DNA of 64,000 bases from Amphiura filiformis (Eukaryota; Echinodermata; Ophiuroidea; Amphilepidida; Amphiuridae): NCBI RefSeq assembly GCF_039555335.1, contig NC_092647.1, positions 15,920,094 to 15,984,093 of the forward strand, given 5' to 3'. The position numbers and the translations under genes are program-made. The notes under the pieces were generated by a model that saw only the letters and a list, made by a program, of their open reading frames with translations, did no database searches and had not been told where the DNA came from. This document shows, one piece after another, positions 2,616 to 63,476 of the stretch. The number at the start of each line of letters is the position of its first letter. The first letter of the stretch is position 1.

Positions 2616-2833
2616 ACGTGATTATCAAATGTGATGAGTCTAATGGTTGGATGTCTGCAGCCTCAGCTTGCTATAAATATTACTCAAATGACTACACGTG
2701 GACGGATGCTAACAACTACTGTCTAGCTCTTGGAGGAGCATTGATAAGTGTAGAGAGCCAAGAAGAACAAGATCTTGTCACGTTACAGGGATCCACATAC
2801 AAAACAGACATATGGATAGGAGCAAGTGATATT
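2616..2833 (+). CDS. Exon 1 in window: CTLD1, N-terminal part
   Basis: The acceptor TTTCAG precedes 2616 and the donor GTAAGT follows 2833. Two bases complete a codon, then 72 codons follow. Visible are the first cysteine (IIKCDE), the second (ACYKYY), a tryptophan and third cysteine ([10 protein letters not shown]) and the core IWIGASDI. Phase 1 in, phase 0 out. The 2-base overhang implies at least one upstream exon outside the window or undetected. Confidence 0.88.
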
Positions 2834-5800
2834 GTAAGTTGACCGTACCGGTCAGATTTGAAATGAAAAATGTACAAAACCTTTTGTTACTTGAGGCTCT
2901 CATTTTCACAGGGTATTTTGGTAGGGTGTTTTGTTTCAATTTCATTACTATTGCAGACAAATTACGTAAATTTATTATCTAAATATCTGCTTTGGAAAAA
3001 AAATCTTCAATTAGGTTCTCGTAGGCCAAGCAATCATTTTCATTTGGAGTCATGCACATTATACCAAATCAACCTGGTGTAGATTTTTCAACAATACTTC
3101 ATTTTTGAGCAATATTACTTGTACGTATTGGGGGTAACGTATCAGTGGTAACGTATCTGTGAAGCCCTTTCCCACCTTTGTCTTCATCGTGCAAGTGTAA
3201 AAACTTACTGACTTCATACACATACTTGATCAGTTACCAACCAATGTATTATAGTCTGGTATGGTATTTGGCTTCATTTATCAAAGCGTTTTTTCCTAGT
3301 GGAGTAGAATGTAGGTAACGTATCTGTGACAACATGAACGTAACGTCAGGACTTTTTGCCATTAATAGACCTGATTTTTTTTACTTTGAGACCATTGTGA
3401 TATATATCACATATATAATATATCTATGGAGCCTGATTGATCCATCCCATATGAGAATATTCATCTAGCCAACCTGTTGGACAAATTTAATAACCTGTGT
3501 TTTGATGTTTTATACTTTATAATTAGGGCATGATACCGGCTAATGAAAAGTACCTATAATCTATTATATGCGCGCACCTTGGCTGGCGACATCCAGGAAA
3601 ACAATGGATATGCATAATCAGCTTTATTGTTTTATACTTTCTAGATATGTTGCAACCTCTAGCCCCACACATTTTAGAAAGCAACTCCTAAGTATTAGTT
3701 GTATTAATAAAAGTCATTTCTTTCTAATGAAACAAGTCTGAATACGACTTGAATCTATGGGCGACACAAATTTGGCATTTTGAACACTTTATCGGAGAAT
3801 GAGCATATACCGTCTAGTTGGAGCAAACTGATTAATGGTTTTGTGTTTTTAATGCATATCACAGTTTACAGAAATTAATTTAGTTGTTAAATGCAACACA
3901 ACTTAAATGTGATTCAGTTTAATAATAATGATATTGTGTTTTCAATGTTTCATATTTCAGACAAGTGGTACATCTGGTGTATATCAATGGCCTGATGGTG
4001 TTAACATAGGACCATACACTAACTGGGCACCTGGACAACCTGATAATAGGTTAGTAGGGGAGACCGGGGCAAGTCCGCCCTCCCCGTGTTTCTGAACTCG
4101 TGACTGCTGGAAAAGAACAATGATGATGTAATTAGCTGACACACGTCATAGCTAAGTACCAAATAAAACAAGGCAGTCCAACATATCTCGCCACAGAAAT
4201 TATCGTCAAAAAACGTTTCCGAGTCAAGGAAGTTTACTTTTTTAGAATTAATAATATTGTAATAATCTCAAGACCTTGCAGAGTTGGTTTTCGTTCTTAT
4301 ATTTATTTGGAAGGTGAGCCTTTTGCCCAACATATTATGCAATTAAAAGATCGACATTTTGTGTTTAGTAGGCATAAAACGAGGTAAAGAAAAAATGTAC
4401 TGTTGGGGAAGTCTGCCCTGTATGTGAAGGGACACGTTCGCCCTGTGTTTTCCCATAGATTTTAGGTATTTAAAAAATCTATGGTTTTCCCCAGGCGGAT
4501 TCCCGGGGCGGATTCGGCCCATCGGCGTATTATGCAAAATATTGATTATAATACCTTTAAAAAGGTTAAAACTACATGCAAGCATATTTTTATTAAAGTT
4601 AAGTGGTATCAGTATTACTCATACCACCATTTATGCCCTAAATCCATAAATGCCGAAGTTGTAAATAAAGGTTTTGCTCATTTTGTACACCTACATTTAT
4701 CAGCTTACATTATACCCCTTCAATAAATTTAGTATACTCTTTGGAAAAGATTAAGTACCCAATATACCCTTTACTAAACGTTTGCATTAATTTTATCATT
4801 GTTATGCAATATTATAACCTTTTCTTTTTTACCAGCACGGGGCAAGTCCGCCCTTGCATCGTGATTTTTATTTTCACTTCTCTGCCGTTACTGAAAGCTC
4901 AATGTTCTTATAAATGTGATAGTATTTAGCTACAATATACAGTTTTAAAGTGCAAAACTAACATGAGAATTGCCCTCTCTAGGCGAGATTGAAAAGTAGG
5001 GCGGACACGCCCTGGTCTCCCCTATCCATATTATTAACACCTTAGATAAGCGGTGTACCTGGAGGATATACATAGCCTAGTCCGATGGTGTTAACATAGG
5101 CCCATACACTAACTGGGCACCTGTACAACCTGATTATTAGATTACTATCCATATTACTTATTACTAACACCTTAGATAAACGGTGTACCTAGTTGATATA
5201 CATGGTCTGATGGTCTAACCAGTCTCTTACTCAGGAGCGTAGCCAGCTTTTTTGGTCAGGGGGGGCAAAATAAAAATTTTGGGGCACAGACGAAAACAAT
5301 TACTGTTGCATCATACAATACATAGAGACAAAAGGCTTTATTGGGACGATGTGCGCGCGTAGCGCGCAAAAAATTGGTATTTTACACTATTTTCGCACTT
5401 TATCAGGACGGAAAGGGCTTAATCTTTGTAATATGCGCGCGTAGCGCGGAAAAATTGTGTATTTTCGGGCTGAATTTCGGTAGAAAAGGGCTCCTTGCCC
5501 CTTTTCTTTTCCTTTGCCCTCCTGATTTTCCCTTTTATTTTTTTTTGTCAGAGGGCACTTTTTTCTTTCATTTTTTTGTCAGGGGGCACTCTGCCCCCTG
5601 CCCCCCCCGCTGGCTACGCTACTGCTCTTACTTCCATGGTCTAACATAGGACCATACACTAACTGGGCACCTACATGTACCATGATTCTTACCATGTTGA
5701 TAAATATATATACATATAGTACTCATTGTGTTAATAAATTCGGTGTTTTCAACTCTGCGCCAATGAGCCATTCACAAAATTTACCAGTTGCCATTTATTA

Positions 5801-8800
5801 CAAATGTAACAATTAGATGCTCATAAACTTAAAATAAGTTTTAGTAATCACTCATTTTTTTGTGATTTTATCACAAATTGTTAGTGGTTTTCTAAGCTGC
5901 TAATGACAGAAACTAAATCTTGCAGTTATTCCAGTATGGGTGGAAATTGCGCAGAGGTGGTCAGCACAGCATCAGAGGGACAATGGAATACAGCAGCATG
6001 TCCATCAGGAAGAAAATTTATCTGTGAAAAACCTGAAGGTAAGTAAAATATTAATGATACACAGAATGAATACAAAACTAGAAGGCTTTATATTTGTACA
6101 CAAATACGGCTATACCCGCATGTTATCGGTGTACACAAAATTACAGTCCTTATTTGCTGAGGACTTAGGTTGCTGTTGTCAGTCTCTCTAATTCACAGTG
6201 AAGCTATGCAATTTAATAGATTGAAATTCACAATATGCAATTTGATTAGGGGAAAGCTATTCTAGAGGGAGTATGTAAATTAAATGGAACAGCCATTTCA
6301 GAGGGAGTATGTAAATTAAATGGAACAGCTATTTTGGGACCATTTCATAGGGAGTATGTAAATTAAATGGAACAGCCAAAGGTATGTAATTTAAATGGAA
6401 CAGCCTTAACGCTTTACACATGGTATTTCCAATTATCATCATCTATAATTATTATAGGCCTAATACGCTATTGAAATTCACAATATGCAATTTGATTAGG
6501 GGAAAGCTATTCCAGAGGGAGTATGTAAATTAAATGGAACAGCCATTTCAGAGGGAATATGTAAATTAAATGGAACAGCCTATTTTGTGGCCATTTCAGA
6601 GGGAGTATGTAAATTAAATAGAACAGCCAATGGGTATGTAATTTAACTGGAACAGCCTTAACGTTTATGTTATCTATATTATAATTACGCTATTGTCTGT
6701 GAATCTGTTTAGTCCTACGTGTATGGGGTGGGATGGGATGGGCGTTATTAACAATATAATTCTCAGGTGCAATCTGTGTACAAACAATGAGCCCTGAAGC
6801 TGCTTTATTTGATGACAAACGGACGGCCATTTTTTAACATTTGGGGACCATAATATTTGACTTGTGAGGCTCATGTACATATGTTGAAGTATAATTCTCA
6901 AGTGCTATCAGTAGACTCAAGCTGGGCACTGTAGCTGCTTTATTTACTGAGTAACGGCTGGTTTTAGCGTTTTGGGCCCTGGGGCCAATGGAGTGACATA
7001 TGGGGCTCATATGTACATATAACAATATAATTCTCAGGTGCAATCTGTGTACAAACTCTGAGCTCTAAAGTTGCTTTATTTGATGAAAAATGGCCGGGCC
7101 TTTGCTTTAACATTTGGGGCCCCAGGGCCCATAATATTTGACTTCTGGGGCTCATGTGCATATGTTGAAATATAATTCTCAAGTGCTATCAGCAGACTCA
7201 AGCTGGACATTGTAGCTGCTTTCTTTACGGAGTAACGGCCGGCCCTATGTTTTAGCGTTTGAGGCCCTGGGGCCCATATTATGTGACACACGGGGTTCAT
7301 ATATACATATAACAATATAATGCTTTAGACCTAATTAGTGTACCAAATCTAAACCCTGTAGCTCCTTTATTTGCTGAGAAACGACAGGCCCTTTATTTTA
7401 ACATTTGAGCCTCTGGGGCCCCTAGCCTTAAACATCTGGGGCCAAAATGGGCAAAAGGCCATTTACAACTTAGCGCCCATATATGTGCCACATATGAGCT
7501 CTAGTGCCCTTGTAGTTTTATAGCTAGCCTTGTCAATCTGTTGCCCCTTATTTTAACATTTGGGGCCCTGGGGCCCATAATATATGACATGTGGGGCTCA
7601 TGTATACTTGCATATATAGAGTACCCCTGGATCTATCAGTGTACCAACTCAGGGCCCTGAGAGGCTGCTTCATTTAATGAGAAACAGCATGCTTTGTATT
7701 TTTACATTTGGGCCCCTGGGGCCCGTGACCTTGACCTCTGGGGCCGAGATGTGCAAAGGATAAATCTACGGGGTAGGGCCCATAAGTGTACCACATATGG
7801 GATCTGGGGCCCTTGTAGTTTTAGCGCTAGCCCTGTCAATCTGTTGCCCCTTATTTTAACATTTGGGGCCCTGGGGCCCATAATATATGACATATGGGCT
7901 CATGTATAATTGTATATATAGAGTACCCCTGGGGCTATAAGTGTACCAACTCAGGGCCCTGAGGCTACTTCATTTGATGAGAAACGGCATGCTTTGTATT
8001 TTTACATTTGGGCCCCTGGGGCCCGTGACCTTTGACCTCTGGGGCCAAGATGGGCAAAGGATAAATCTACGGGGTAGGGCCCATAAGTGTACCACATATG
8101 GGCCCTGTGGCCCTTGTAGTTTTAGCGCTAGCCTTGACAGAATGTTGTGTTTGATTGAGGAGGAAGAAGAGGAGAAGGAGAAGAAACCATAGGATGGCAA
8201 TATACCCGTTCATGCTTCGCATGCGGGTATAACCATAGGATGGCAATATACCTGCTCATGCTTCGCATGCGGGTATAGCAAATTATAACTCTCTTTCACC
8301 AATTATGGGGTGGGGTGAATTATGGACCTTTGTGTACTAAAACTATAAGTAAGGCCCTTAAGGTGACTGTGCACTCTCAGAAATGCATTATTGAAAGTGG
8401 TGTAACTTCTTATAAATTATTCATGAAAGATGTATAAAAGTATACTTTTTGGAATGAAAATTAGTCAAGGAATCTAAATATAAACACAGATTTGGTGTAA
8501 AATGATTTAAAAAAAACCTCTTTTATCTACTCAAATTTGTGTAAACACACTTTAGAAACAAGACAAATCCAAACTGCTTTTTTGCGTGTTTTTTTTCAAT
8601 TTTTTCTAAACTCTGTGTACTATAATAAACTAATAAACGCATACCAAAAAGTAATTACCCCTCCCCCCTTCATTACGAAATAAAACTCAAAATCTATGAA
8701 AAATATTTAAGAATGAAATAGCAAAATTTTGAATTTTGATACCTCATTTGCCTGGATAGCTCAAAGTTTGTAGCCATGGTGACTCATTGAATGGAAAAGA

Positions 8801-11800: not shown

Positions 11801-13927
11801 TTTCTTTCCTTCTTTGTTTCGTTCCCGTTTCATTTAGTTACTTTAACCCATTGGCCTATTTACTCGTACCTTTTTTTTTTCTTTTTAATTTAATTTTTCT
11901 TTATAGTACCGCTTCATGTTGTTTATACAACACGCATCTTTTCCCGTATTTATTACGTCCTCTCATAGCGTGTCTGCGGACGTGTTCACCCGGTATTCCG
12001 TGACCCGTCCATGTACCTTTTTCTCCTTTATTTTTCCTTCTTTCCGTATTATCATGTCCACTGGTCTCTGGCTCGCAAGTCGTGTGGCTCTGCGCCGTTT
12101 ACGCGCGCATTTGCGCAATACGCACGCGGCGCCGACGCGCTGCCGGCCAGCTGCAGTGACGCGTAGGCTGGTAACCGATTTTCATAACAAAAACCCCGTT
12201 TTTACCCATATTTTCACTGTTTTTGCAGCCAATTCTTTATCATTTTCAACCAAATTTTCGCATAACCGTCTCGGTAAGTTACCCGTATGAATTTGGCGAC
12301 ATTTGGATCGATACTGACGGAGCCTTTATACACTATACATAGATACATAGATAGATAGATATTAGATAGATACATACATACAACATTCCCCTATTTATAG
12401 TAAGATAAATACAAGCTAAAACCGTTGGGGTTCGATAATGAACCCCACAAAACTAACCGAGTATATTGAAAATGCCATACGGCCGGGCGGTTTCACGAGT
12501 TGCCGGCTCGATCATGTCATCCACCACCTGAAACGAACAAACGATGTGCACATCGGCGCAGATAGGCGTGACGTAAAATGACGAGTTCTCAGGTGTACTC
12601 GCAAAGGTTTATGGGATTTACCGAAAAGGTGAATTGGCGGGAAATAATGAGTCAGAAATGTGCGAATGCGAAATATCGTGATTACGCGCGCGATTCGCGT
12701 CGCGTGACGCAGCGCAACTCTGCGCGTATGTCCAATGCAGTAAAGACGCATTCGATATGTTGTTAACACCGGCAAATGTGGTGTAAATAAAACAAACATT
12801 TGCCGTCAAAATGCCACTTAGATTTGTTAATTATTTTGAATTTTGGCGCACTAAAAGCAGACATTATAGATTCATTATGCAAAAAAATACATATTTAGGC
12901 CATGCACCAAATACAGCTTTTACAAGCGTGAAAGTCTTACCGTTTTAAGATACAAGAACATTTTGTGCATTTTTGAGATAACTTTTTGCACTATCGTTTT
13001 GAGTACACCAAAGTCTAGGGAAGGTTTTCGCATTTTCAAAAATATGCACCATTATGTGCAATTTTTAGCTAAAAAATTAAAGAAAACATTCCCTAAGTTC
13101 ATGTCTCTTCTTCATGAAAAAAATTGGGTTAAAAAAGTGAATTTTTGTGATTTTTTCAAAAACTCAAAATTGTTGAACACATCTGACATCACCATGGGAT
13201 TCCTTGACTCATTTCCTTTCCAAAAATGTATAGTTTTATATACTTTGGACATACAATTCAGAAATAATGATGCTCGAAAAGGTCCATGTTCTCTCCCATT
13301 ACTCCATACTGCAGTTACTGTCCGTTTTCCTATACACAATACACAGTGCTCTCACAATTGACGCGTGACCTTTACAAATGATGTACGTTGCAAGAATGGG
13401 CACTTGCCTAGTTAACATCACTGTGTGAAAAATAACCAGCCAATATTTTAGCTATTCTCCAAACTTCTAGCAAATATATTTCTCTAACATGACCTAAAAT
13501 TACAGCTAGGTTAGATGTTCAGAAATAGTCGCACTTTTGTAAAATATGAGTGAGGGCAAGGCATAGCTAGCCAACTTCCCGTGTTAATTGAATGGAGATT
13601 TGACCGAAAATATTGGTATCGGACCGCTCACTTCTGAAGGATGCCACAAAAAAACGGTACAAGCTACATCTTAACTATTCTCTGGCAATCATCATGATGA
13701 GTTTCTTATATAGTATGCCGAAATTGGGTACTGTAGGTGATTGACAAAGGGTCGCACTTTTCTGATAAATAAGTGACAGTGAACATGAAATATCAGCGCC
13801 CATAAACCCAAGTTAGTAGCTAGTTAGTGGAGGCCGTCACGGGACTGATTATTGATTATTGAAGTGCCTTATTAATAGATACGCAAGATGTAGGGCAAGA
13901 AAAAACAAACCGGGACACTTTTGGAGA

Positions 13928-13991
<64 letters not shown>

Positions 13992-55900: not shown

Positions 55901-58900
55901 CTATACGAAACTATACGCAACTTTAGTGTATACATGTTAAGGGGCCAAGTGGACTTACGGTCTTCTTGCGCTCAGGTCTTCAAATATGACTGAAACCAGA
56001 TTTTGTGCAAGTGGCCTGTCAGTGACGATATGCATTCAATACCGTCAAGCTGAGACGATAGGTATTTTCGTCTCAAACGTCAAGTAAGGGCAACCAACAC
56101 TGTACCTCAATATGTGCTCTAACGTACTGTTGCCAATGTGTGATTGTTTACTGCACACATTGTTTGAATTAGAAAAGATTTGCAATCAGCTACTGTTGAT
56201 AATTTGTCTACATATCTATGAAAGTTGAATCTTTTTACATCACAATACTTTAAAGTTACCCAAACTTCTATTTCAGAATGCACATTTCTTGAAAACTTTT
56301 ATACTCTGCTTTTGTTTGCAGACTTTAAGAAAGTATGACTACCATTCTCATTGGATTGGGCTAAGGACATATGCTGCAAATGGGAAATATTCGTAAGTAG
56401 ACAAAACTGAAACTTAATTCAAAGAAGCTAGTACCATATTCTATTTCCATGTAACTTCCTTAAATAGATAAACAGATATTTAAAAGAAAAAAGATAAATA
56501 TAGAGGAGGGAATGTGAGGGGACAGGAGATTTGAGAAGAGGAGTGGATGAATCAATCGACAACATTTGAGAGAAATAAAGTCACCAATTTACCTTGTGTA
56601 AATATGTTTTCCCTACTTTTAGACAAAAAAAGACAAATACCGAGTATTGACTCATCAGTTCTTAGAAGGATTTTAATTCTATGCATTGAATGAAATATAC
56701 AGATATTTACTTTGTCATGATAAGATGTGGGGAAGGTGATGATTTTAGTTAATTTTAAAAATATCTCCAAATTACAAATTCTGGGGCAGTCAGACCCCTT
56801 AAAACAGGTTTTTTTGTCACCTAAGGGTGATCTTACATAATGTATTTGATATCTTTACGCCCTTGTATTGTTTTAGATGGTCTGATGGAACACCTCTAGA
56901 CTACATCAACTGGTCACCAGGGGAACCAAATGATTTTAATGGAGAAGAAGAGTGTGCAGAATTCTATGTCTATAGTAAGCTATGTGTTCAATTGATGATA
57001 ACTATGACACGTCAGTCAAGTTAGTGCAGTTGGTAGGGCATCAGAGTCAGTGCGAGAGGTCCCAAGTTCAAGCCCTGGTGTGGTTGGAAATTGTTCTTGT
57101 GAAAATAATTGCACTAACTTGAAAATTCCCCTGGACAAGGAACTAGATGCTTTATTGTCTCGGTTTATACTAATACGTTACTCAGGGAGCTGATCCTGGT
57201 TGCGATGGTTATATGTGGGTAGACTAGGAGACTGGGCATGCACGTTATATTTTGGGTTAGATGTCGGGGTCTTATTTCTGGAACCAATATGGCTTTTTGG
57301 AGGTGTTGTTCATGCCTAACTATAATGAAAATTATGTACTTTTAACAGCTTAGTAAAATAGAGACTAGTAGAATCACAACACCCCTCTAATCACACTTGT
57401 ATAGTCCTAGGAAAACATTAATAATGTGAGAGTGAAAAGGAGGGGAAAAGAGTGAAAGAAAGAAACTAGAATCAAAAACATTTGGGAGAAAAAAGTTACC
57501 AACCTAGTGTAAATATTTAATTTGACTTTTGACTTTCAGCAACATCAGAACCAGGCTCATGGAATGACCTGAACTGTGGAGACAAGATTCCATTTATATG
57601 CAAGAAAGCTAATGGTAACATTGCCCCTATCACCTATCCCCCTACTCCGACTCCTGTAGGTAACTGTCCTACAGGAGCCTTCAAATTTGACAATCGTTGT
57701 TACCAGTTCTTTGGGGAGGATACAGCAGATCGTGTTGGCTGGCATGATGCAAGAACACAATGCGAGTCATTGGGAATGCAACTAGCTACTCTACATAGTC
57801 AACAAGTGCAATGTAAGTATGTTTGTTTGTTTAAGCAATTTAGAAATATGAGAATCGTAGCATTTGTTGGTTATTTCTCTGCAGCCTCTTGTGCCCTACG
57901 TAAAAGGTGCTATTAGACTAGGAGCCCAGACAATTTATTCAGCTCAGAAGAGACAAAAGGTTTGATGGTCTGATTATGTTAGTACAGGCCCAAGATTCAA
58001 TATGCCATATTGCTGCCGGGTCACAGCCTGTACGTTCAGCCTGGGGGTCACAAAATAGGGGGCCAAAAAATGCATTTATTCAGCTCAAGAGAGACATGGA
58101 CAAAACTTGTTGGATATCACTCCCAGGAGGATACTTTTCATGCCTATAGCAATGACAGCAATTTTGCCCTGTACGGGGGCCCAGACAGTAGCCCCAAAGG
58201 GCCCCGCCCATATGGTGTTATTCAGCTGAAGAGAGACAAGGATGAATCTTTTTGCATTGGAACTATTACACATTGGGGTGCACAAAAATACCAATGACAG
58301 CAACTTTTTTCCTGTACAGGGGCCCAGACAGTAGCCTCAAAGGGCCCAATGTCCCATAACTGATTTATTCAGCTGAAGAGAGACATGGATGAATCTTTTT
58401 GCATTGGAATTATTACCCATTGGGGTTTACAAAAATATCAATGACAGCAACTTTTTCCTGTACGGGGGCCTAGACAGTAGCCTCAAAGGGCCCAATGTCC
58501 CATAACTGATTTATTCAGCTGAAGAGAGGCATGCATAAATATTTTTGCATTGGAAGGAGTGCACAAAAATACCAATGACAGCAATTTTTTCCTGTACAGG
58601 GGCCCAGACAGTAGCCTCAAAGACCCCGATGCCCCATAACAGGTTATTCAGCTGAAGGAAGACATGCATAAATATTTGTGCATTGGAACTATTACACATT
58701 GGGGTGCACAAAAATACCAATGATAAAGTGAACAATAGCCCATGAGGAGTGACACATTCAAGAACTTATATAGGCACTCGATTATATAGGCACTATATAA
58801 AAGAAAACTACATGTGCCAATCATTGGTTCACAGTAGCTTAGGAACAACAAGAGTGAAGGGTAAAGCATCAGACATGTGAAATAAGATGCTTATGCACGC

Positions 58901-61900: not shown

Positions 61901-63476
61901 CGCATGTCTTCCTTCATCTGAATAACCTGTTATGGGGCATCGGGCCCTTTTAGGCTACTGTCTGGGCCCCCGTACAGGAAAAAGTTGCTGTCATTGGTAT
62001 TTTCGTAAACCCCAATGGGTAATAGTTCCAATGCAAAAAGATTCATCCATGTCTCTCTTCAGCTGAATAAATCAGTTATTGGACATTGGGCCCTTTGAGG
62101 CTACTGTCTGGAAAAAGTTGCTGTCATTGGTATTTTTGTGCACCCCAATGTGTAATAGTTCCAATACAAAAAGATTCATCCTTGTCTCTCTTCAGCTGAA
62201 TAACACCATATGGGCGGGTCCCTTTGGGGCTACTGTCTGGGCCCCCGTACAGGCCAAAATTGCTGTCATTGCTATAGGCATGAAAAGTATCCTCCTGGGA
62301 GTGTTATCCAACAAGTTTTGTCCATGTCTCTCTTGAGCTGAATAAATGCATTTTTTGGCCCCTATTTTGTGACCCCCAGGCTGAACGTACAGGCTGTGAC
62401 CCGGCAGCAATATGGAATATTGAATCTTGGGCCTATACTAACATAATCAGACCGTCAAACCTTTTGTCTCTTCTGAGCTGAATAAATTGTCTGGGCTCCT
62501 AGTCTATATATATAATTATGTTATTCTATGGAAGTGTGTATATATTTTATGAAGTGTGTATATTAATGAATCTGTTCTTATAGCTTTCTTGACCACCCAG
62601 CTAAAGACTGTCACATACCGTATGTGGATTGGACTCAGTGATGTTACCACTACTGGTCAGTTTCGATGGGCTGATGGCACAGCTGTAGATTTCACCAACT
62701 GGAATAATGGAGAACCTAACGAAGCAGGTGGTGAAGTAAGTGTGCATTTGAAACACACACACTACATGCAGCTACAGTGTGATTTAAGTGTTTCTCTGGT
62801 TGACATCACAGACCTCATCAATACACCCCTTTACTGGAAATACCCAGGAAACACAAAAATGCTCTTAAACATTTATTCAAAACGTAACATTTAAATGTCA
62901 GGTTATACAAAGGTCATGAAAACGTTTCTAAGACGTTATTGTAAGATATTTTGGGCAAACATTTTTGCAAAATATTTTGTCAACACTTAAATAACATTCT
63001 GTTTAGAATATTTTGCAGCAATTTTTCAAAATGAATTTTGAATGTTATTAAAATGTTTTATACCCTTTATATATCCCGACATATAAATGTTTTCTGTAAA
63101 ACGTTGTTTCCTGGGTATGTGTCAACCATGGACCAAAACAGCACTGGGGAAACGTGGACCCAAATTTAATAACCAAACAGTGGACCTATTGAACCATAGA
63201 CTGACCCTATAGAGGATACACTGTTAAGTGCATTTTTAGGCTTTTTGTAATCTTCAAAGGCAAGTGTTCAGCCTTCCACGGTTGGTAAAGTGGCCACCCC
63301 AGTGGCCATGGTGTATCAGAATGTAACAGAAGAGTGTCCATTCAGCCTCATTATGAAATCATGTTATTTTTTGCAGGAAGACTGTGTAGAAATGTTAAAC
63401 AACAAAGATGATGTTGGTGAATGGAATGACAATGCATGTGGGAAATTGAATGGATTTGTTTGTCAGAGGAACCCAG
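2616..63476 (+). CDS. Partial multi-CTLD mosaic receptor gene (9 C-type lectin domains, FAMeT-like domain, PAN domain), 34 exons
   Basis: The exons join in one reading frame: 2616-2833, 3961-4049, 5926-6038, 18196-18325, 23117-23199, 25070-25189, 26134-26205, 26811-26843, 27765-27923, 28507-28595, 29051-29204, 31472-31686, 33208-33427, 33824-33850, 34979-35152, 36836-36952, 37459-37572, 39697-39933, 41135-41350, 42602-42762, 43139-43249, 44059-44177, 45380-45528, 48620-48831, 49133-49266, 50418-50470, 52119-52286, 52956-53000, 55161-55335, 56322-56392, 56877-56974, 57540-57812, 62584-62735, 63377-63476. Each has an AG acceptor and a GT donor (one GC donor), and phases match at every junction except for a one-base frameshift in exon 29. 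Each CTLD has six cysteines, a WIG-like core and a W-N/Q-D type C-terminal motif. Known family: macrophage mannose receptor-like lectins bind glycans outside the cell. FAMeT and PAN modules make this architecture unusual. Both ends are missing. It could be two adjacent genes, but no stop or promoter divides it. Confidence 0.85.
3961..4049 (+). CDS. Exon 2: CTLD1, central ligand-binding loop (QPD)
   Basis: Twenty-nine codons plus two bases, phase 0 to phase 2. It reads GVYQWPDG then [10 protein letters not shown], so the calcium-site triplet is QPD, the galactose-type signature in known CTLDs. The donor GTTAGT lies directly against a MITE that begins at 4055. Decayed copies of this exon lie downstream at 5046-5140 and 5176-5690. 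Confidence 0.88.
4055..5024. mobile_element. 970-bp TIR element with TA target duplication
   Basis: Left end GGGGAGACCGGGGCAAGTCC and right end, reverse-complemented, GGGGAGACCAGGGCGTGTCC, flanked by TA on both sides. It starts 5 bp after the exon-2 donor GT. The flank after the right end (TCCATATTATTAACACC) matches the flank after the decayed exon copy at 5140, which preserves the empty site. TA duplication suggests a Tc1/mariner-type relative. Confidence 0.85.
5046..5140 (+). pseudogene. Decayed tandem copy of exon 2 (CTLD1 loop)
   Basis: It contains CCGATGGTGTTAACATAGG and CACTAACTGGGCACCTG, nearly identical to exon 2. A TAG preceding it corresponds to the exon 2 acceptor. Its frame has an in-frame TAG and a degraded donor, so it cannot replace exon 2. 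Confidence 0.85.
5176..5690 (+). pseudogene. Third decayed copy of exon 2, split by a hAT-like MITE
   Basis: The 5' part (5176-5231) ends at CTCTTACT. The 3' part resumes after 5632 with ACATAGGACCATACACTAAC and TGGGCACC. The intervening 5232-5624 is a transposon. The copy has lost its frame. Confidence 0.8.
5232..5624. mobile_element. hAT-like MITE, 393 bp, 8-bp TSD
   Basis: Begins CAGGAGCGTAGCCAGC, ends GCTGGCTACGCTACTG, and is flanked by the identical 8-bp duplication CTCTTACT (5224-5231 and 5625-5632). The interior is G/C-run rich and non-coding. Confidence 0.9.
5926..6038 (+). CDS. Exon 3: CTLD1, C-terminal part
   Basis: Acceptor CTTGCAG, donor GTAAGT. The exon completes a serine codon and contains [15 protein letters not shown] and KFICEKPE, which supply the last three CTLD cysteines. 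The second calcium-site motif is WNT rather than WND. It ends in phase 1 before the 12.2-kb intron. Confidence 0.88.
6230..6670. repeat. Minisatellite with 250-bp higher-order duplication
   Basis: A motif of about 36 bp (GAGGGAGTATGTAAATTAAA followed by TGGAACAGCC) is repeated at least seven times. The block starting near 6231 is repeated from about 6480, both opening with TTGAAATTCACAATATGCAA. Confidence 0.9.
6745..8140. repeat. Diverged tandem array rich in GGGGCCC, units about 270-300 bp
   Basis: The unit start AATATAATTCTCAGGTGCAA recurs near 6755 and 7025, and later units share TTTGGGGCCCTGGGGCCC (7559, 7862). The last two units are about 303 bp apart and closely alike. Open frames here on both strands arise from the repeat. 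Confidence 0.88.
8189..8280. repeat. Short tandem duplication with hairpin core
   Basis: Two units of about 43 bp, each containing CCATAGGATGGCAATATACC and the small palindrome CATGCTTCGCATG. Confidence 0.8.
8358..13330. mobile_element. Large repeat block with inverted arms
   Basis: A 70-bp segment at 9340-9409 recurs inverted at 12564-12633 with about one mismatch. Outer arms are also related: TTGGAATGAAAATTAGTCAAGG at 8459-8480 resembles the inverted sequence near 13198-13230. The left end TTAAGGTGACTGTGCACTCT resembles the TTAA-flanked element at 19613. Interior 12050-12180 and 12650-12730 are CpG-rich. No transposase was recognised. Exact right boundary uncertain. Confidence 0.55.
12336..12381. 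repeat. GATA/CATA microsatellite
   Basis: An imperfect run of ATAGATAGATA and ATACATACATA units. Confidence 0.9.
13927..14011. repeat. (ATC)n microsatellite
   Basis: About 28 ATC triplets, broken once by a CGAC interruption near 13991. Confidence 0.97.
14060..14450. repeat. Minisatellite of about 60-bp units
   Basis: Six or so copies of a unit with GTGATGAAATAAAACATCAC followed by GATTTTCATCAC and AACAAAGTAATACATAAG. Each unit contains a small GTGATG/CATCAC inverted pair. Minus-strand open frames here are repeat artefacts. Confidence 0.92.
14918..15195. repeat. Dispersed repeat, related to 52577-52915
   Basis: Opens TTAAAGGAGTATTTCGTGATCC. Its contents match, inverted, the copy near 52.6-52.9 kb: the ATCTACTGAAAAATG-like block, the CATGCATAACT block and the CTGCAAGA block occur in opposite order and orientation. 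Confidence 0.7.
15507..15819. mobile_element. hAT-like MITE, 313 bp, 8-bp TSD
   Basis: Begins CAGGGCTGTCAACTTT and ends GAGTTGACAGCCCTG, with perfect TTCCCAAC duplications at 15499-15506 and 15820-15827. The interior has GCGTGAGA motifs repeated five or so times and a long G run near 15630. Confidence 0.93.
16247..16876. mobile_element. TIR MITE family 'CAATTGAATAC', copy A
   Basis: Inverted ends of about 38 bp: CAATTGAATACATGAATACA and the reverse complement at the right, including CACC-AAGTCCA. Interiors match copies at 34221-34851 and 49762-50402 (the last inverted). Confidence 0.85.
17550..17885. mobile_element. Half copy of palindromic TTAA MITE
   Basis: Starts TTAAGGGATCTAAAATGAGC and contains TATCGAATTGCATTCTGAAT and AAAGCCGACGGTCAATTG, as in the full palindromes at 25202 and 29224. 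It stops near the palindrome centre. Confidence 0.8.
18196..18325 (+). CDS. Exon 4: CTLD2, N-terminal part
   Basis: Acceptor TTTTACAG. Reads [16 protein letters not shown] and [10 protein letters not shown], the standard opening of a CTLD with its first three cysteines. The joined codon with exon 3 gives glycine. Phase 1 in, phase 2 out. Confidence 0.87.
18930..19330. repeat. Tandem repeat of about 107-120 bp carrying TGACCTTTGACCT
   Basis: Four units, each with the 13-bp direct-repeat motif TGACCTTTGACCT (18937, 19054, 19174, 19281) and most with TTTGAGCCCGATCGGACAAA. The motif equals a DR1 nuclear-receptor half-site pair. Function is inference only. Confidence 0.85.
19613..21413. mobile_element. 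1.8-kb TIR element flanked by TTAA
   Basis: Left TTAAGGAGGCTGTGTACTCT and right, reverse-complemented, TTAAGGCAGCTGTGTACTCT. TTAA at both borders suggests a piggyBac-like target. Internal GCG-rich segment 20310-20420. There is an internal ~110-bp direct duplication (about 21000-21070 and 21140-21240). No transposase seen. Confidence 0.8.
21484..21862. mobile_element. CAGCAAACA-family MITE pieces
   Basis: One copy ends with TGTTTGCTGGGT at 21793-21804 and is directly followed by the start GCCCAGCAAACATAAAAA of another, truncated copy. Rich in AACGTTTT and ACATTTT motifs. Confidence 0.7.
22224..22914. mobile_element. Composite CAGCAAACA-family MITE, copy 1
   Basis: Begins ACCCAGCAAACACAAAACG and ends TGTGTTTGCTGGGT, with extra internal end motifs at 22373 and 22646-22661, so it is built from several modules. 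The 35-bp flanks at 22190-22224 and 22914-22948 (containing GCACAACTGTGTTTGTGGTC) are direct repeats. Confidence 0.85.
23117..23199 (+). CDS. Exon 5: CTLD2, helix 2 and WIG core
   Basis: Acceptor ATTGCAG, donor GTAAGG. Reads [14 protein letters not shown] and then DIWIGMS, the conserved hydrophobic core of a CTLD. One base completes the preceding codon, and the exon leaves in phase 1. Confidence 0.85.
23213..23470. repeat. TTGATCAATCA simple repeat
   Basis: A run of TCAATCAG/TTGATCAA octamer-like units; shorter related runs lie at 24040-24090 and 24960-25045, directly before exon 6. Confidence 0.92.
24130..24305. repeat. C/T-rich low-complexity tract
   Basis: Almost pure pyrimidine, ending in (CCCT)n-like units. 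Pro/Ser-rich open frames here are not genes. Confidence 0.92.
25070..25189 (+). CDS. Exon 6: CTLD2, loop region, with a GC splice donor
   Basis: Reads [16 protein letters not shown], then NTNQPSD and PDCGTIF. The calcium-site triplet is QPS, which breaks the EPN/QPD consensus, so carbohydrate binding by CTLD2 is doubtful. The only donor that keeps frame with exon 7 is AG|GCAAG at 25190, a GC-AG intron. A palindromic MITE starts 12 bp further on. Confidence 0.85.
25202..25845. mobile_element. Palindromic TTAA MITE, about 640 bp, 12 bp after exon 6
   Basis: Left arm starts TTAAGGGATCTGGAATGAGC; the arms are near-perfect inverted copies meeting around 25515-25545, with AAAGCCGACGATCAATTG on the left and its inverse on the right. 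RNA from it would form a long hairpin just past the GC donor. Confidence 0.85.
26134..26205 (+). CDS. Exon 7: CTLD2, C-terminal part
   Basis: Acceptor TTATCAG, donor GTAAGT. Reads [20 protein letters not shown], giving the last two cysteines. The usual WND is WST here. Phase 1 in and out. Confidence 0.85.
26811..26843 (+). CDS. Exon 8: 11-residue proline-rich linker between CTLD2 and CTLD3
   Basis: A 33-bp phase 1-1 exon between TTTTTAG and GTAAGT, reading [11 protein letters not shown]. Small Pro/Thr linkers of this kind recur between domains in this gene (33824-33850 and 52956-53000). Confidence is lower because the exon is very short. Confidence 0.68.
26887..27332. mobile_element. TIR MITE, about 445 bp
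   Basis: Inverted ends of over 40 bp: GGCCCCAACTCAACACAAAA on the left and its inverse near 27290-27325, extending to GGTAACCATGAGAGTTACC-like segments. Interior repeats of TACCCCTTTT / GTGCACATTAAATACC. Confidence 0.85.
27765..27923 (+). CDS. Exon 9: CTLD3, N-terminal part
   Basis: Acceptor CCTATAG, donor GTAAGT. Reads [18 protein letters not shown], then [13 protein letters not shown] and SIHSAEEQ. This is a complete CTLD first half with three cysteines. Phase 1 in and out. Confidence 0.88.
28507..28595 (+). CDS. Exon 10: CTLD3, WIG core
   Basis: Acceptor TTTTCAG, donor GTAAGT. Reads [20 protein letters not shown] and then GTP. Phase 1 in, phase 0 out. Confidence 0.88.
29051..29204 (+). 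CDS. Exon 11: CTLD3, loop and C-terminal part (QPD, WND)
   Basis: Acceptor TTCAAAG, donor GTGAGT. Reads [18 protein letters not shown], then GLWNDLPC and [11 protein letters not shown] together with WND suggests an intact galactose-type calcium site. A palindromic TTAA-flanked MITE begins 20 bp past the donor. Confidence 0.88.
29224..29870. mobile_element. Palindromic TTAA MITE, about 645 bp, 20 bp after exon 11
   Basis: Starts TTAAGGGCTGGGGTAGTG and forms a long inverted repeat meeting near 29520-29545. Same family as 25202-25845 and the half copies at 17550 and 53290. Confidence 0.85.
30722..30944. mobile_element. hAT-like MITE, 223 bp, 8-bp TSD
   Basis: Begins CAGGGGCTATTTTAACGTGT and ends as its inverse; TIRs extend about 40 bp. 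Perfect GTGTTTAT duplications at 30714-30721 and 30945-30952. Confidence 0.92.
31472..31686 (+). CDS. Exon 12: FAMeT-like ('Methyltransf_FA', PF12248-type) domain, first half
   Basis: Acceptor TTTCCAG, donor GTAAAA. Two bases then 71 codons: [19 protein letters not shown] and [17 protein letters not shown]. These match my memory of the domain named after farnesoic acid O-methyltransferase, a beta-rich module common in marine invertebrate extracellular proteins. No methyl-donor site is visible here, so I infer a structural or binding role rather than an enzymatic one. Phase 1 in, phase 0 out. Confidence 0.82.
31996..32581. mobile_element. Composite CAGCAAACA-family MITE, copy 2 (inverted)
   Basis: Starts ACCCAGCAAACACAAAAATG and ends GTGTTTGCTGG, with an internal ACCCAGCAAACACAGAAATG at 32235. 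The module order is the reverse of copy 1 at 22224. Confidence 0.85.
33208..33427 (+). CDS. Exon 13: FAMeT-like domain, second half
   Basis: Acceptor ATTTCAG, donor GTACGT. Reads [31 protein letters not shown] and [19 protein letters not shown]. The W-R-x-FWI, G-x-x-x-IG and '[10 protein letters not shown]' segments are characteristic of the end of this domain family. Phase 0 in, phase 1 out, so the two exons form a 1-1 module. Confidence 0.85.
33824..33850 (+). CDS. Exon 14: 9-residue Pro/Thr linker
   Basis: A 27-bp phase 1-1 exon between TATTTCAG and GTAAGT, reading TDAPTPEPT. It is compositionally identical in style to the other linkers. Very short, so confidence is moderate. Confidence 0.62.
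34221..34851. mobile_element. TIR MITE family 'CAATTGAATAC', copy B
   Basis: Same ends and interior as copy A at 16247. Followed at 34859-34888 and 34926-34955 by a short direct duplication (GTGAAATGGACTC). Confidence 0.85.
34979..35152 (+). CDS. Exon 15: CTLD4, N-terminal part
   Basis: Acceptor ATTTTCAG, donor GTAGGT. Reads [38 protein letters not shown] and EEQTYIN. Three cysteines are in their expected places. Phase 1 in and out. Confidence 0.88.
35312..35600. repeat. Dispersed repeat shared with 38300-39560
   Basis: Both share TTTTGAGCCGAACAA, AAAGAAAATTGGAATTTACT-like and GAACATCG segments. The copy at 38.3 kb is interrupted by the hAT-like element 38491-39455, and this copy shows the uninterrupted version. 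Confidence 0.75.
36109..36732. mobile_element. Composite CAGCAAACA-family MITE, copy 3
   Basis: Colinear with copy 1 at 22224 (starts CCCCAGCAAACACAAAACG, shares CATCATTCGCAAAAGGTTGT). The right terminus is degraded. Ends about 100 bp before exon 16. Confidence 0.82.
36836..36952 (+). CDS. Exon 16: CTLD4, WIG core and loop
   Basis: Acceptor TTTGCAG, donor GTATGT. Reads [18 protein letters not shown] and RYLNWNPG. Phase 1 in and out. The exon begins about 100 bp after a composite MITE (36109-36732). Confidence 0.88.
37459..37572 (+). CDS. Exon 17: CTLD4, C-terminal part (EPN, WND)
   Basis: Acceptor TTTACAG, donor GTTAGT. Reads [24 protein letters not shown] and [11 protein letters not shown] with WND is the mannose-type calcium site of known CTLDs, so this domain is predicted to bind sugar. 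Phase 1 in and out. Confidence 0.9.
38491..39455. mobile_element. hAT-like element, 965 bp, 8-bp TSD
   Basis: Begins ATGGCAAGCC and ends GCTTGCCAT with about 65 bp of inverted end sequence, including AGCTTCTTTCTCGTTACG. ATACGTGT duplications lie at 38483-38490 and 39456-39463. A second inverted pair (38915-38945 with 39182-39212, TTTTCTTCGGAAGGGGG) suggests a nested smaller element. No transposase. Confidence 0.88.
39697..39933 (+). CDS. Exon 18: PAN/Apple-like domain in a single exon
   Basis: Acceptor TATTCAG, donor GTAAGT. A 78-codon phase 1-1 exon containing [33 protein letters not shown] and FDYYEK. The C-x3-C, then C-x-S-x-x-Y, then C-x-L-S-D pattern is that of PAN/Apple modules, which mediate protein or carbohydrate contacts. 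Neighbouring exons are CTLDs, and its symmetrical phase fits insertion by exon shuffling. Confidence 0.85.
40645..41105. mobile_element. TIR element with a strong internal hairpin
   Basis: A nearly perfect palindrome with ~60-bp arms spans 40651-40790 (left arm includes GGTATGATACGGGA and TGTCATACTGGGT). TCATACCACTAAG at 40796 pairs with CTTAGTGGTATGA at 41085. The GCG/CGCG-rich middle resembles the CpG-rich parts of 8358-13330. It ends about 30 bp before exon 19. Confidence 0.72.
41135..41350 (+). CDS. Exon 19: Pro-rich linker plus CTLD5, N-terminal part
   Basis: Acceptor CCCATAG, donor GTAAGA. Begins with the linker [12 protein letters not shown], then [35 protein letters not shown]. Here linker and CTLD share an exon, unlike CTLD3 and CTLD4. 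Phase 1 in and out. The end of a TIR element lies about 30 bp upstream. Confidence 0.88.
41845..42538. mobile_element. 694-bp TIR element flanked by TTAA
   Basis: Left TTAAAGGGAATCTGTACCAT and the inverse of ATCTGTACCATAAACTAATC at the right. The border tetranucleotide TTAA is at 41845-41848 and 42535-42538. Confidence 0.82.
42602..42762 (+). CDS. Exon 20: CTLD5, core and loop (EPN)
   Basis: Acceptor TTATTAG, donor GTAAGT. Reads [20 protein letters not shown], then [20 protein letters not shown]. The core is WTG rather than WIG. EPN predicts mannose-type binding. Phase 1 in, phase 0 out. Confidence 0.88.
43139..43249 (+). CDS. Exon 21: CTLD5 end, linker, and first cysteine of CTLD6
   Basis: Acceptor GTGGCAG, donor GTAAGC. 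Reads [18 protein letters not shown], then the linker [12 protein letters not shown] and GCSL, which is the first cysteine of CTLD6. Phase 0 in and out. This is an exception to the phase-1 domain boundaries, since the exon bridges two CTLDs. Confidence 0.85.
43332..44058 (+). pseudogene. Decayed tandem fragments of exon 22 and its acceptor
   Basis: At 43412-43500 the frame still reads [12 protein letters not shown] and [12 protein letters not shown], close to exon 22. At 43507-43580 CTGGGTTGCATACCAATAT recurs. Tail pieces (GTGGGTTGATGTTATTATAT, TTTCTGTAG) occur near 43370, 43470 and 44010-44058. None has the exon's 3' half and donor. Confidence 0.82.
44059..44177 (+). CDS. Exon 22: CTLD6, N-terminal part
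   Basis: Acceptor TTCTGTAG, donor GTAAGC. Reads [17 protein letters not shown], then [20 protein letters not shown]. Phase 0 in, phase 2 out. Several decayed copies of this exon and its acceptor lie in the preceding intron (43332-44058). Confidence 0.87.
44237..44421. mobile_element. hAT-like MITE, 185 bp
   Basis: Begins CAGTGGCGGCTCCAGG, ends CGCCGCCACTG, flanked by imperfect 8-bp copies (AGTGTAAT and TATGTAAT). A related left end occurs alone at 33633. Confidence 0.75.
44706..44766. repeat. 61-bp near-perfect palindrome
   Basis: Arms AATCAAACTCTATGCAAT and its inverse meet at ACATCCACGCGTGGATGT. It could form a strong hairpin. Confidence 0.85.
45380..45528 (+). CDS. Exon 23: CTLD6, core and loop
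   Basis: Acceptor AATTTCAG, donor GTAAAT. Reads [18 protein letters not shown], then THWDQGMP. Joined to the next exon the calcium-site triplet is MPD, which breaks the EPN/QPD rule. A composite MITE starts 28 bp after the donor. Confidence 0.87.
46152..47651. mobile_element. 1.5-kb TTAA-flanked insertion inside the MITE
   Basis: TTAA at 46152-46155 and 47648-47651. Left end GGGCTGGGGTATGAGCG and right end, reverse-complemented, GGGAGGTGTAATGAGCG are imperfect TIRs. The left end matches the palindromic MITE family at 29224, and 46546-46565 (ACCTGATCGTCGGCTTTTGC) matches its interior. Confidence 0.8.
47425..47640 (+). mobile_element. tRNA-derived SINE
   Basis: Pol III box A TGGCTCAGTGG at 47434-47444 and box B GGTTCGATTCC at 47478-47488, in a tRNA-like head of about 75 bp followed by an unrelated body. 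It lies inside the TTAA insertion. Confidence 0.78.
48525..48615. repeat. Tandem 29-30-bp repeat abutting exon 24
   Basis: Three units of TTAAAATGCTAATATTGTAT plus TATGATTTG; the last unit ends TATGATTTTCAG, which is the exon 24 acceptor. Confidence 0.85.
48620..48831 (+). CDS. Exon 24: CTLD6 end, Pro/Thr linker, CTLD7 start
   Basis: Acceptor ATTTTCAG, donor GTAAGC. Reads [29 protein letters not shown], then [18 protein letters not shown] and GNNCFR. The CTLD6 motif is WQD. One exon bridges two CTLDs without an intron. Phase 1 in, phase 0 out. The acceptor sits at the end of a 30-bp tandem repeat (48525-48615). Confidence 0.87.
49133..49266 (+). CDS. Exon 25: CTLD7, helices 1 and 2
   Basis: Acceptor CTTCCCAG, donor GTAAGT. 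Reads [20 protein letters not shown], then [11 protein letters not shown]. Phase 0 in, phase 2 out. Confidence 0.87.
49330..49612. mobile_element. Palindromic MITE, 283 bp
   Basis: Arms of about 70 bp start AGATCTACTGGACTT and include GAGTGGCAATATTTCACATC; the right arm is the inverse. The flanks share ATTATAAT. Confidence 0.88.
49762..50402. mobile_element. TIR MITE family 'CAATTGAATAC', copy C (inverted)
   Basis: Same ends as copies A and B with the interior in the opposite orientation. Its right end is about 15 bp upstream of exon 26, so the branch point may be MITE-derived. Confidence 0.85.
50418..50470 (+). CDS. Exon 26: CTLD7, core
   Basis: A 53-bp exon with acceptor CTTCCAG and donor GTGAGT, reading [19 protein letters not shown] replaces the usual WIG. 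Phase 2 in, phase 1 out. A TIR MITE (49762-50402) ends about 15 bp before the exon. Confidence 0.82.
50574..50987. mobile_element. TIR MITE, about 414 bp
   Basis: Inverted ends of about 38 bp: TGTGACGTGTCATGTCAAAA followed by GGAGACACTTTTGGGCAGG, inverted at 50949-50987. Confidence 0.88.
51242..51870 (+). mobile_element. 5'-truncated LINE (L2/CR1-like), RT C-terminal part
   Basis: The frame 51242-51750 reads [66 protein letters not shown] and ends [10 protein letters not shown]-stop. These are the post-catalytic motifs of L2/CR1-type reverse transcriptases. A short 3' UTR ends in (ATGT)n near 51855-51870, the usual tail. It lies in the intron between exons 26 and 27, sense strand. Confidence 0.9.
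52119..52286 (+). CDS. Exon 27: CTLD7, loop and C-terminal part (EPN, WND)
   Basis: Acceptor CACTTCAG, donor GTAACA. Reads [39 protein letters not shown] and SWVCKIAK. This is a canonical mannose-type site. Phase 1 in and out. Confidence 0.89.
52577..52915. repeat. Dispersed TIR-like repeat, copy 2
   Basis: Left TTAAAGGGGCATTTCGTGATCC; the right end GGATCACCAAATACTCCT is its approximate inverse. Related to 14918-15195. Confidence 0.72.
52956..53000 (+). CDS. Exon 28: 15-residue Pro/Thr linker
   Basis: A 45-bp phase 1-1 exon between TCCATAG and GTAAGT, reading [14 protein letters not shown]. Similar to the linkers at 26811 and 33824. Confidence 0.68.
53166..54316. mobile_element. hAT-like element, 1.15 kb, 8-bp TSD
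   Basis: Begins CAGGGACAGACTTAGG, ends CTGTCCATG; ends carry inverted CTGGCCC/GGGCCA motifs. Perfect TTAGTAAG duplications at 53158-53165 and 54317-54324. It carries a half copy of the palindromic TTAA MITE (53290-53480). Confidence 0.87.
54402..54641. mobile_element. Short CAGCAAACA-family MITE
   Basis: Starts ACCCAGCAAACACAAAATG and ends TTTTTGTGTTTGCTGG; single-module version of about 240 bp. Confidence 0.85.
55161..55335 (+). CDS. Exon 29: CTLD8, N-terminal part, with a one-base frameshift
   Basis: Acceptor TATTTCAG, donor GTAAGT. Reads [38 protein letters not shown], then meets TGA at 55325-55327. The exon is 175 bp; one more base near 55314-55317 (an A-run before CGAC) would give an open frame ending in phase 0. 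That is exactly the phase needed by exon 30. This may be a true null allele, a sequencing error, or a decayed domain. Confidence 0.8.
55723..55982. mobile_element. Palindromic MITE, 260 bp
   Basis: Arms of about 64 bp, almost identical when inverted, start TGAAGACCTGAGCGCAAGAA and include CCACTTGGCCCCT. Confidence 0.9.
56322..56392 (+). CDS. Exon 30: CTLD8, core
   Basis: Acceptor TTTGCAG, donor GTAAGT. Reads [20 protein letters not shown], then KYS. Phase 0 in, phase 2 out. Its frame only joins exon 29 if the missing base there is allowed for. Confidence 0.83.
56877..56974 (+). CDS. Exon 31: CTLD8, loop (EPN)
   Basis: Acceptor GTTTTAG, donor GTAAGC. Reads [20 protein letters not shown], then [13 protein letters not shown] indicates a mannose-type site. 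Phase 2 in, phase 1 out. Confidence 0.87.
57003..57240 (+). mobile_element. tRNA-derived SINE with Deu-like core (candidate)
   Basis: The head TTAGTGCAGTTGGTAGGGCA and box-B-like AGTTCAAGCCC resemble tRNA promoters. The following CCCCTGGACAAGGAACTAGA and ATTGTCTCGGTTT resemble the conserved core found in deuterostome SINEs (CCTTGGGCAAG..., TGCCTC). The assignment of the core is from memory. Confidence 0.55.
57540..57812 (+). CDS. Exon 32: CTLD8 end, linker, CTLD9 N-terminal part
   Basis: The longest exon (273 bp), with acceptor ACTTTCAG and donor GTAAGT. Reads [20 protein letters not shown], the linker [13 protein letters not shown], then [17 protein letters not shown] and [20 protein letters not shown]. 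It bridges two CTLDs like exon 24 but extends further, to helix 2 of CTLD9. Phase 1 in and out. Confidence 0.88.
58880..60354 (-). mobile_element. Degenerate LINE (Jockey/CR1-like), minus strand
   Basis: Minus-strand frames, broken by shifts, read in order: [18 protein letters not shown] (about 60080), a region with remnants of the fingers/palm, [20 protein letters not shown] (about 59590), [15 protein letters not shown] (59400), [20 protein letters not shown] (59290) and [13 protein letters not shown] (58910). These are reverse-transcriptase and post-RT motifs. A more N-terminal piece lies at about 61349-61475. Confidence 0.82.
60355..61348 (+). mobile_element. 5'-truncated LINE, plus strand, inserted into the minus-strand LINE
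   Basis: Starts abruptly within the RT at [12 protein letters not shown] (catalytic Y-x-DD). One frameshift near 60655 then leads to [55 protein letters not shown] and a stop at 61169-61171. The 3' UTR ends in an AAATA repeat at 61325-61348. It separates two parts of the older minus-strand LINE, showing nested insertion. Confidence 0.88.
62584..62735 (+). CDS. Exon 33: CTLD9, core and loop (EPN)
   Basis: Acceptor TCTTATAG, donor GTAAGT. Reads [20 protein letters not shown], then [15 protein letters not shown]. Phase 1 in, phase 0 out. Separated from exon 32 by an intron that hosts the 4.6-kb foldback-like element. Confidence 0.89.
62841..63116. mobile_element. CAGCAAACA-family MITE relative
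   Basis: Begins ACCCAGGAAACACAAAAATG and ends GTTTCCTGGGT (both ends carry GGAAAC instead of GCAAAC, a compensated change). Lies between exons 33 and 34. Confidence 0.82.
63377..63476 (+). CDS. Exon 34: CTLD9, C-terminal part (last exon seen)
   Basis: Acceptor TTTTGCAG, donor GTAGGA. Reads [20 protein letters not shown], then [11 protein letters not shown] completes a mannose-type site. It leaves in phase 1 with no stop codon, so the gene continues beyond the window. Confidence 0.88.

Follow-up and report, generated by a model that had tools for sequence, protein, structure and literature searches.

A probable multi-lectin gene of Amphiura filiformis in which FAMeT and PAN modules lie within a row of nine CTLDs

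A stretch of 64,000 nucleotides from Amphiura filiformis (NC_092647.1, positions 15,920,094 to 15,984,093; hereafter the window) carries pieces of many CTLDs together with a FAMeT and a PAN module, which raises the question of whether these modules belong to one lectin gene and what kind of protein such a gene would encode. We consider it probable that the window represents the middle of a single animal gene encoding a large, mannose-receptor-like extracellular multi-lectin, into which FAMeT and PAN have been shuffled. The DNA itself looks like that of an animal, being intron-rich with a GC content of 37% and having no match in tRNA and Rfam scans of the window; a plasmid search likewise gave no match at E 1e-3.

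Gene model and domain order

The exons were first located by motif and profile scans for C-type-lectin fragments, which placed them on the plus strand from 2616 to 63476. Exon edges were set by eye on the sequence and the exons were then joined by script, with frame and splice consensus in view. The rebuilt model contains 31 exons, all resting on edges set by eye and on the joined frame, with the further basis of each given in brackets:

2616..2833, plus strand: exon 1a, first part of CTLD1, phase-1 start (Lectin_C E 2.9e-8 in the enclosing open stretch)
3961..4049, plus strand: exon 1b, middle of CTLD1, QPD (CTLD profile)
5926..6038, plus strand: exon 1c, end of CTLD1 (CTLD profile)
18196..18325, plus strand: exon 2a, first part of CTLD2, weak donor GTTTGC (CTLD profile)
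23117..23199, plus strand: exon 2b, CTLD2, WIG (CTLD profile)
25070..25189, plus strand: exon 2c, CTLD2, QPS, GC donor (CTLD profile)
26134..26205, plus strand: exon 2d, end of CTLD2 (CTLD profile)
27765..27923, plus strand: exon 3a, first part of CTLD3 (CTLD profile)
28507..28595, plus strand: exon 3b, CTLD3, WIG (CTLD profile)
29051..29204, plus strand: exon 3c, end of CTLD3, QPD and WND (CTLD profile)
31472..31686, plus strand: exon Fa, first half of FAMeT, PF12248 (PF12248 E 1.1e-14 in the enclosing open stretch)
33208..33427, plus strand: exon Fb, second half of FAMeT (PF12248 E 1.3e-13 in the enclosing open stretch)
34979..35152, plus strand: exon 4a, first part of CTLD4 (Pfam on the open stretch)
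36836..36952, plus strand: exon 4b, CTLD4, WIG (CTLD profile E 2.4e-8, held out)
37459..37572, plus strand: exon 4c, end of CTLD4, EPN and WND (CTLD profile)
39697..39933, plus strand: exon P, whole PAN module, phase 1-1 (PAN_1 E 2.6e-11 in the enclosing open stretch)
41135..41350, plus strand: exon 5a, proline-rich linker and first part of CTLD5 (Pfam on the open stretch)
42602..42762, plus strand: exon 5b, middle of CTLD5, EPN (Pfam on the open stretch)
43139..43249, plus strand: exon 5c, end of CTLD5 (WND), Pro/Thr linker, first Cys of CTLD6 (by eye)
44059..44177, plus strand: exon 6a, first part of CTLD6 (by eye)
45380..45528, plus strand: exon 6b, middle of CTLD6, MPD for EPN, motif completed in the next exon (CTLD profile)
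48620..48831, plus strand: exon 6c7a, end of CTLD6, Pro/Thr linker, start of CTLD7 (by eye)
49133..49266, plus strand: exon 7b, CTLD7 (CTLD profile)
50418..50470, plus strand: exon 7c, CTLD7, WFG, 53 nt, weak (profile E 14; place and phases)
52119..52286, plus strand: exon 7d, end of CTLD7, EPN and WND (CTLD profile)
55161..55335, plus strand: exon 8a, first part of CTLD8, one-base slip near 55310-55323 (by eye)
56322..56392, plus strand: exon 8b, CTLD8, WIG, 71 nt, weak (profile E 2.8; place and phases)
56877..56974, plus strand: exon 8c, CTLD8, EPN (CTLD profile)
57540..57812, plus strand: exon 8d9a, end of CTLD8 (WND), Pro/Thr linker, start of CTLD9 (CTLD profile)
62584..62735, plus strand: exon 9b, middle of CTLD9, EPN (Pfam on the open stretch)
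63377..63476, plus strand: exon 9c, end of CTLD9, WND, phase-1 GT donor (CTLD profile)

Joined, the exons total 4,496 bases and read in a single frame through 1,499 codons without a stop, one N being placed at the slip in exon 8a; the 30 introns have a median length of 1,251 bases, the longest reaching 12,157. AG is present at all 31 acceptors, and the donors comprise 30 GT and one GC, with 27 of the 31 matching at least seven of the nine consensus positions, compared to 4.1% of all plus-strand GT. Considered one at a time, 25 of the 31 exons have a single open phase and 30 have at least one. Wherever two single-phase exons adjoin, which is the case at 18 of the 30 junctions, their phases agree (18/18), while the remaining 12 each involve an exon with two open phases or exon 8a, which has none. 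Frame and consensus guided the choice of sites, and these counts therefore favour the model without being independent tests of it. The single non-GT among the 31 donors is the GC at 25190 following exon 2c.

A better test is provided by a CTLD profile that was built from part of the window's own exons and that recovered five exons or exon parts left out of its building, namely 4b (2.4e-8), 4c (7.8e-10), 7d (1.8e-17), 8c (3.5e-10) and the start of 8d9a (0.0044). Searched against both strands of the whole window, the profile matched 30 stretches at E <= 0.05, all on the plus strand and most of them by construction, and its best minus-strand match had an E value of 0.75. Two of the 30 stretches, at 5081 and 43415, represent degenerate copies of exons and no exons themselves. 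Exons 7c (profile E 14) and 8b (E 2.8) are the weakest of the model and were accepted for place, phase and motif only. The model begins in phase 1 with exon 1a and closes in phase 1 with exon 9c, at a GT donor; the window is therefore the middle of the gene, both ends of which lie beyond it together with the signal peptide and any ricin/FNII region or membrane anchor. Thus, the limits of 2616 and 63476 assigned to the gene in the initial annotation coincide with splice sites of the model, but they mark internal exon edges rather than gene ends.

Pfam searches of the joined exons identify nine PF00059 domains and single copies of PF12248 and PF00024, arranged along the plus strand as CTLD1-2-3-FAMeT-CTLD4-PAN-CTLD5-6-7-8-9. 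Both the module set and the order agree with what had been annotated from the letters, and the profile search proposed beforehand as a check matched PF12248 and PAN above cut-off, leaving that description standing. Scored alone or as the sole CTLD of its piece, all nine joined CTLDs lie above the Lectin_C cut-off of 22.6 bits, at 70.3 to 89.3 bits (CTLD1 70.3, CTLD2 77.8, CTLD3 81.0, CTLD4 88.3, CTLD5 81.8, CTLD6 78.4, CTLD7 89.3, CTLD8 79.5 and CTLD9 87.8). The joined FAMeT exons match Methyltransf_FA (PF12248) over nearly its full length (E 1.1e-33, 116.3 bits vs a cut-off of 24.2, profile positions 2-136 of 140), and the PAN exon matches PAN_1 (PF00024; E 5.6e-11 in the joined exons, 42.6 bits vs a cut-off of 21.4, positions 2-74 of 76). 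Additional matches on the CTLD pieces, to the lectin-like UL45, A33R, Intimin_C and Xlink as well as to DUF1451, DUF1036, RNR insertion and CadC_C1, and a PPC match on FAMeT all fell below their own cut-offs and are taken as cross-hits or chance. The sole PDB match to FAMeT up to E 1, a formate dehydrogenase (E 0.36), is attributed to chance. A PDB sequence search with the PAN exon gave no match up to E 10, and fold models of the PAN exon alone (pLDDT 39.5) and of exon Fa with a bacterial FAMeT (pLDDT 37.2) were unusable.

In the scanned plus-strand gaps, Pfam returned only the CTLD4 exons already in the model and the remnant of a reverse transcriptase. These scans, in three frames with stops as X, covered the flanks, the phase-1 inter-module introns (except 39457-39696) and the second and third longest introns, with coordinates 1-2615, 6039-18195, 18326-23116, 26206-27764, 29205-31471, 33428-39456, 39934-41134, 52287-55160, 57813-62583 and 63477-64000; on the minus strand, the two longest introns (6039-18195 and 18326-23116) had no Pfam match at E 0.05. 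Scans of this kind detect only pieces long enough to score alone and shorter exons can hide, such that the 12,157-base intron between exons 1c and 2a could conceal exons too short for Pfam.

Several further features are present within the introns. The reverse-transcriptase remnant lies at 60189-60782 between exons 8d9a and 9b (PF00078 E 2.1e-6, 28.0 bits vs a cut-off of 29.6). Decayed partial copies of exon 1b, over 54 nt, are located at 5084-5137 (94%) and 5634-5687 (67%), and those of exon 6a at 43405-43483 (85% over 79 nt) and near 43502; these copies in neighbouring introns are traces of small tandem duplications within the gene. Tandem arrays with units of ~110-300 bases occupy 6842-7287, 7354-8133, 58146-58723 and 61595-62275.

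The lectin row and alternative readings of the locus

Six cysteines, as in the long form of the CTLD, are counted in all nine CTLDs. The pair EPN and WND, which predicts calcium-dependent sugar binding of the mannose type, is present in five of the nine (CTLD4, 5, 7, 8 and 9) and absent as a pair from CTLD1 (QPD and WNT), CTLD2 (QPS and WST), CTLD3 (QPD and WND) and CTLD6 (MPD and WQD), QPD being the galactose-type motif. The CTLDs share 26-42% pairwise identity and their intron positions vary, which points to a probably ancient origin of the row. CTLD5, 6, 7 and 9 are each preceded by a proline-rich linker. FAMeT, encoded by two exons, and PAN, encoded by one, are both phase 1-1 modules, the classic form for exon shuffling.

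Among the best 60 of 135 PDB matches, the chain closest to CTLD5-9 is the yolk sac IgY receptor (E 2e-103, query 16-728 of 730), followed by further close chains from Ly75/DEC-205, the PLA2 receptor and mannose receptors 1 and 2. That these best 60 of 135 matches are led by group VI chains, and that the gene is open at both ends, would be expected of a true group VI orthologue with ricin and FNII domains upstream, a membrane anchor downstream and FAMeT and PAN gained as inserts. We regard such orthology as unlikely: the best PDB matches reflect only what has been solved, and region 1-2615 contains no ricin or fibronectin II match, although it is small and the gene continues upstream. Other animal multi-CTLD proteins that have neither ricin nor FNII domains also exist.

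The description of the locus as one gene holds in part. Exon 5c extends beyond CTLD5 into the first cysteine of CTLD6, exon 6c7a leads from CTLD6 into CTLD7, and exon 8d9a likewise completes CTLD8 and opens CTLD9, so that a single transcript is established by exons across CTLD5-6-7 and across CTLD8-9 only. The other seven of the ten module boundaries (1/2, 2/3, 3/FAMeT, FAMeT/4, 4/PAN, PAN/5 and 7/8) lack a bridging exon and carry phase-1 introns, at which exons alone cannot prove a single transcript; here we infer it. These introns fit one gene, yet they also permit alternative transcripts, and with lengths of up to 12,157 bases the introns could contain promoters. Two or more adjacent genes, or transcripts divided for example into CTLD1-3, FAMeT-CTLD4-PAN and CTLD5-9, would thus be conceivable, and a loose plus-strand scan did return signal-peptide-like starts (89/438) and membrane-tail-like ends (7/112), many of them overlapping. 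The same scan of the minus strand gave 48/381 starts and 4/104 ends with heavy overlap, and no conclusion was drawn from it, whereas a stricter scan for signal peptides and membrane tails gave none of either kind on either strand. In the model, every module is bounded by an acceptor and a donor and no stop closes the last exon of any module, and CTLD5 to 9 are linked through shared or linking exons save across 7/8, which together make separate genes quite improbable. One gene across all modules is therefore the simplest reading, with transcripts that start or end inside it as a possibility.

The frame of this gene is interrupted at one site. As printed, exon 8a runs into a stop soon after 55310-55323, contains stops in all three phases and needs one extra base, at a site adjoining a short A run, to remain open. 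Were the slip real, the gene would be broken here and the full protein no longer made, as in a decayed copy. Against such decay, every exon of the model other than 8a (30 of 31) has at least one open phase, none of the 54 CTLD cysteines is lost, and exon 8b follows in the correct phase only if the slip is an artefact. Short A runs are, moreover, common places for sequencing or assembly errors. Either an error of this kind or a true defect would account for the slip, but we judge a decayed copy to be very unlikely. An assembly chimera of unrelated loci is scarcely credible given the continuous frame, the single coding strand and the several modules interlocked by bridging exons.

FAMeT and the proposed protein

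By its name, the FAMeT module would suggest an enzyme of hormone synthesis, a role that the available parts of three sources still assign to it as a hormone-methylating domain (PMC9358689, PMC9363628, PMC8194122). According to the accessible text of PMC10015273, however, methylation of farnesoic or juvenile hormone acid by FAMeT was never reliably shown in vitro, and mutagenesis in the fruit fly left hormone levels unaffected. In excerpts from other work, human CPAMD8 is depicted with the module (PMC9358689), which is also named as part of CPAMD8 molecules (PMC9363628), is found in six gland-specific footprint (adhesive) proteins of the sea star (Sfp1, 3, 4a, 5, 7 and 8; PMC9382459) and is linked with the mollusc shell (PMC8194122). 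We therefore reject the idea that FAMeT makes the protein a hormone-synthesis enzyme.

A pattern scan of prokaryote genomes, in which 17 stretches matched and one was confirmed, identified a relative of exon Fa on a bacterial MAG contig, with 60% identity over 45 residues. The relative lies in an open frame of 419 residues, in which PF12248 follows two DM9 stretches (contig L001, 4413-5672); by eye, this frame has a signal-peptide-like start and its neighbouring frames look bacterial. PF12248 is present in two of nine genomes from the phylum group of the MAG, the source genome included, vs none of 14 control genomes, and pattern scans of viral contigs gave no confirmed relative of either the window FAMeT or the bacterial FAMeT. 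In insect FAMeT proteins, the DM9/FAMeT pair has the opposite order to that of the bacterial frame (PMC10015273, in part), and the available portion of PMC5712788 mentions insect DM9-FAMeT fusions and describes an oyster DM9 protein that recognises microbes. The position of FAMeT beside DM9, together with microbe recognition by the oyster DM9 protein, makes a binding role for FAMeT plausible. FAMeT in the window would best be read as a binding or spacer module, not as a methyltransferase.

Taken together, the CTLD motifs, the linkers, the group VI matches and the phase 1-1 modules lead us to read the protein as, most likely, a long multivalent glycan-binding rod. As judged from their motifs, CTLD4, 5, 7, 8 and 9 are predicted to bind sugars of the mannose/GlcNAc/fucose type via calcium and CTLD3 may take a galactose-type sugar, while CTLD1, 2 and 6 would act as spacers or protein binders. 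The proline-rich linkers before CTLD5, 6, 7 and 9 would give flexibility to the C-terminal half. FAMeT and PAN appear to have been acquired by phase 1-1 exon shuffling and would serve as additional binding or spacer modules, FAMeT presumably without enzymatic methylation. No membrane segment is seen in the joined 1,499 codons (top 19-residue hydropathy 1.34), the 3' end lying outside the window, and no signal peptide is seen within the modelled exons, the 5' end also lying outside; the protein may accordingly be either secreted or anchored. Its likely use would be in microbe recognition with uptake or agglutination, or in adhesion to glycan-rich surfaces. The receptor suggested in the initial annotation would call for an anchored form, and an immune or adhesive role is read from the domain types.

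We also note that the frame of exon 2a, if its weak donor is unused, reads into a hydrophobic stretch followed by a stop (18196-18407), which might be chance or, through retention of the intron, give a short membrane-bound form.

If one transcript has all eleven modules, the locus offers a clean case of exon shuffling, with FAMeT, whose annotated enzyme role is doubtful, brought into a lectin row. It would then support FAMeT as an extracellular binding module, and its five CTLDs predicted to be active would offer a further multi-lectin for comparison with the vertebrate mannose receptors. Only tentatively do we suggest an undescribed class of very large animal lectins, in which FAMeT and PAN are shuffled into a mannose-receptor-like row, FAMeT itself binds glycans or proteins, and several surfaces are read at once.

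Comparison with known lectins

The mannose receptor family (group VI: MRC1, MRC2/Endo180, PLA2R, Ly75/DEC-205 and FcRY) likewise has a long tandem row of CTLDs, and in both cases CTLDs with altered motifs stand beside CTLDs that keep them. The row of the mannose receptor family is, however, generally uninterrupted by other modules, whereas the window gene has FAMeT and PAN within it. MRC1 relies mainly on CTLD4 and few CTLDs of vertebrate mannose receptors are known to bind sugar; the window gene, unlike MRC1, has five CTLDs with EPN and WND. With nine CTLDs, it exceeds the group VI minimum of eight given in the available part of PMC514892. The nearest precedent that we met for a split row is described in that same part, namely Fugu DEC-205-FUSE, a GenScan prediction in which two CTLD groups are separated by LCCL and FA58C rather than by FAMeT and PAN (PMC514892).

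The window gene shares PF12248 with the sea star footprint proteins and CPAMD8, where it also occurs in extracellular mosaics, and with the FAMeT proteins of insects and crustaceans, where it accompanies DM9/DUF3421; within the available parts of these sources, none of the FAMeT proteins described pairs the module with a CTLD row and PAN. Lineage-specific CTLD mosaics are described for bivalves (PMC10140915, in part), their extra modules being WSC, sushi, scavenger receptor, apextrin and immunoglobulin, and the word 'farnesoic' occurs 0 times in the main text. Among the matches listed from a partial literature, no description of a CTLD, FAMeT and PAN combination was found, though one may well exist in protein databases. 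The parts of the Amphiura gene are known and their combination is unusual; with lineage-specific CTLD mosaics already described, the gene extends a familiar type of system and does not found a new one, being a multi-lectin to be placed beside the mannose receptors and the mosaic CTLD proteins of other animals.
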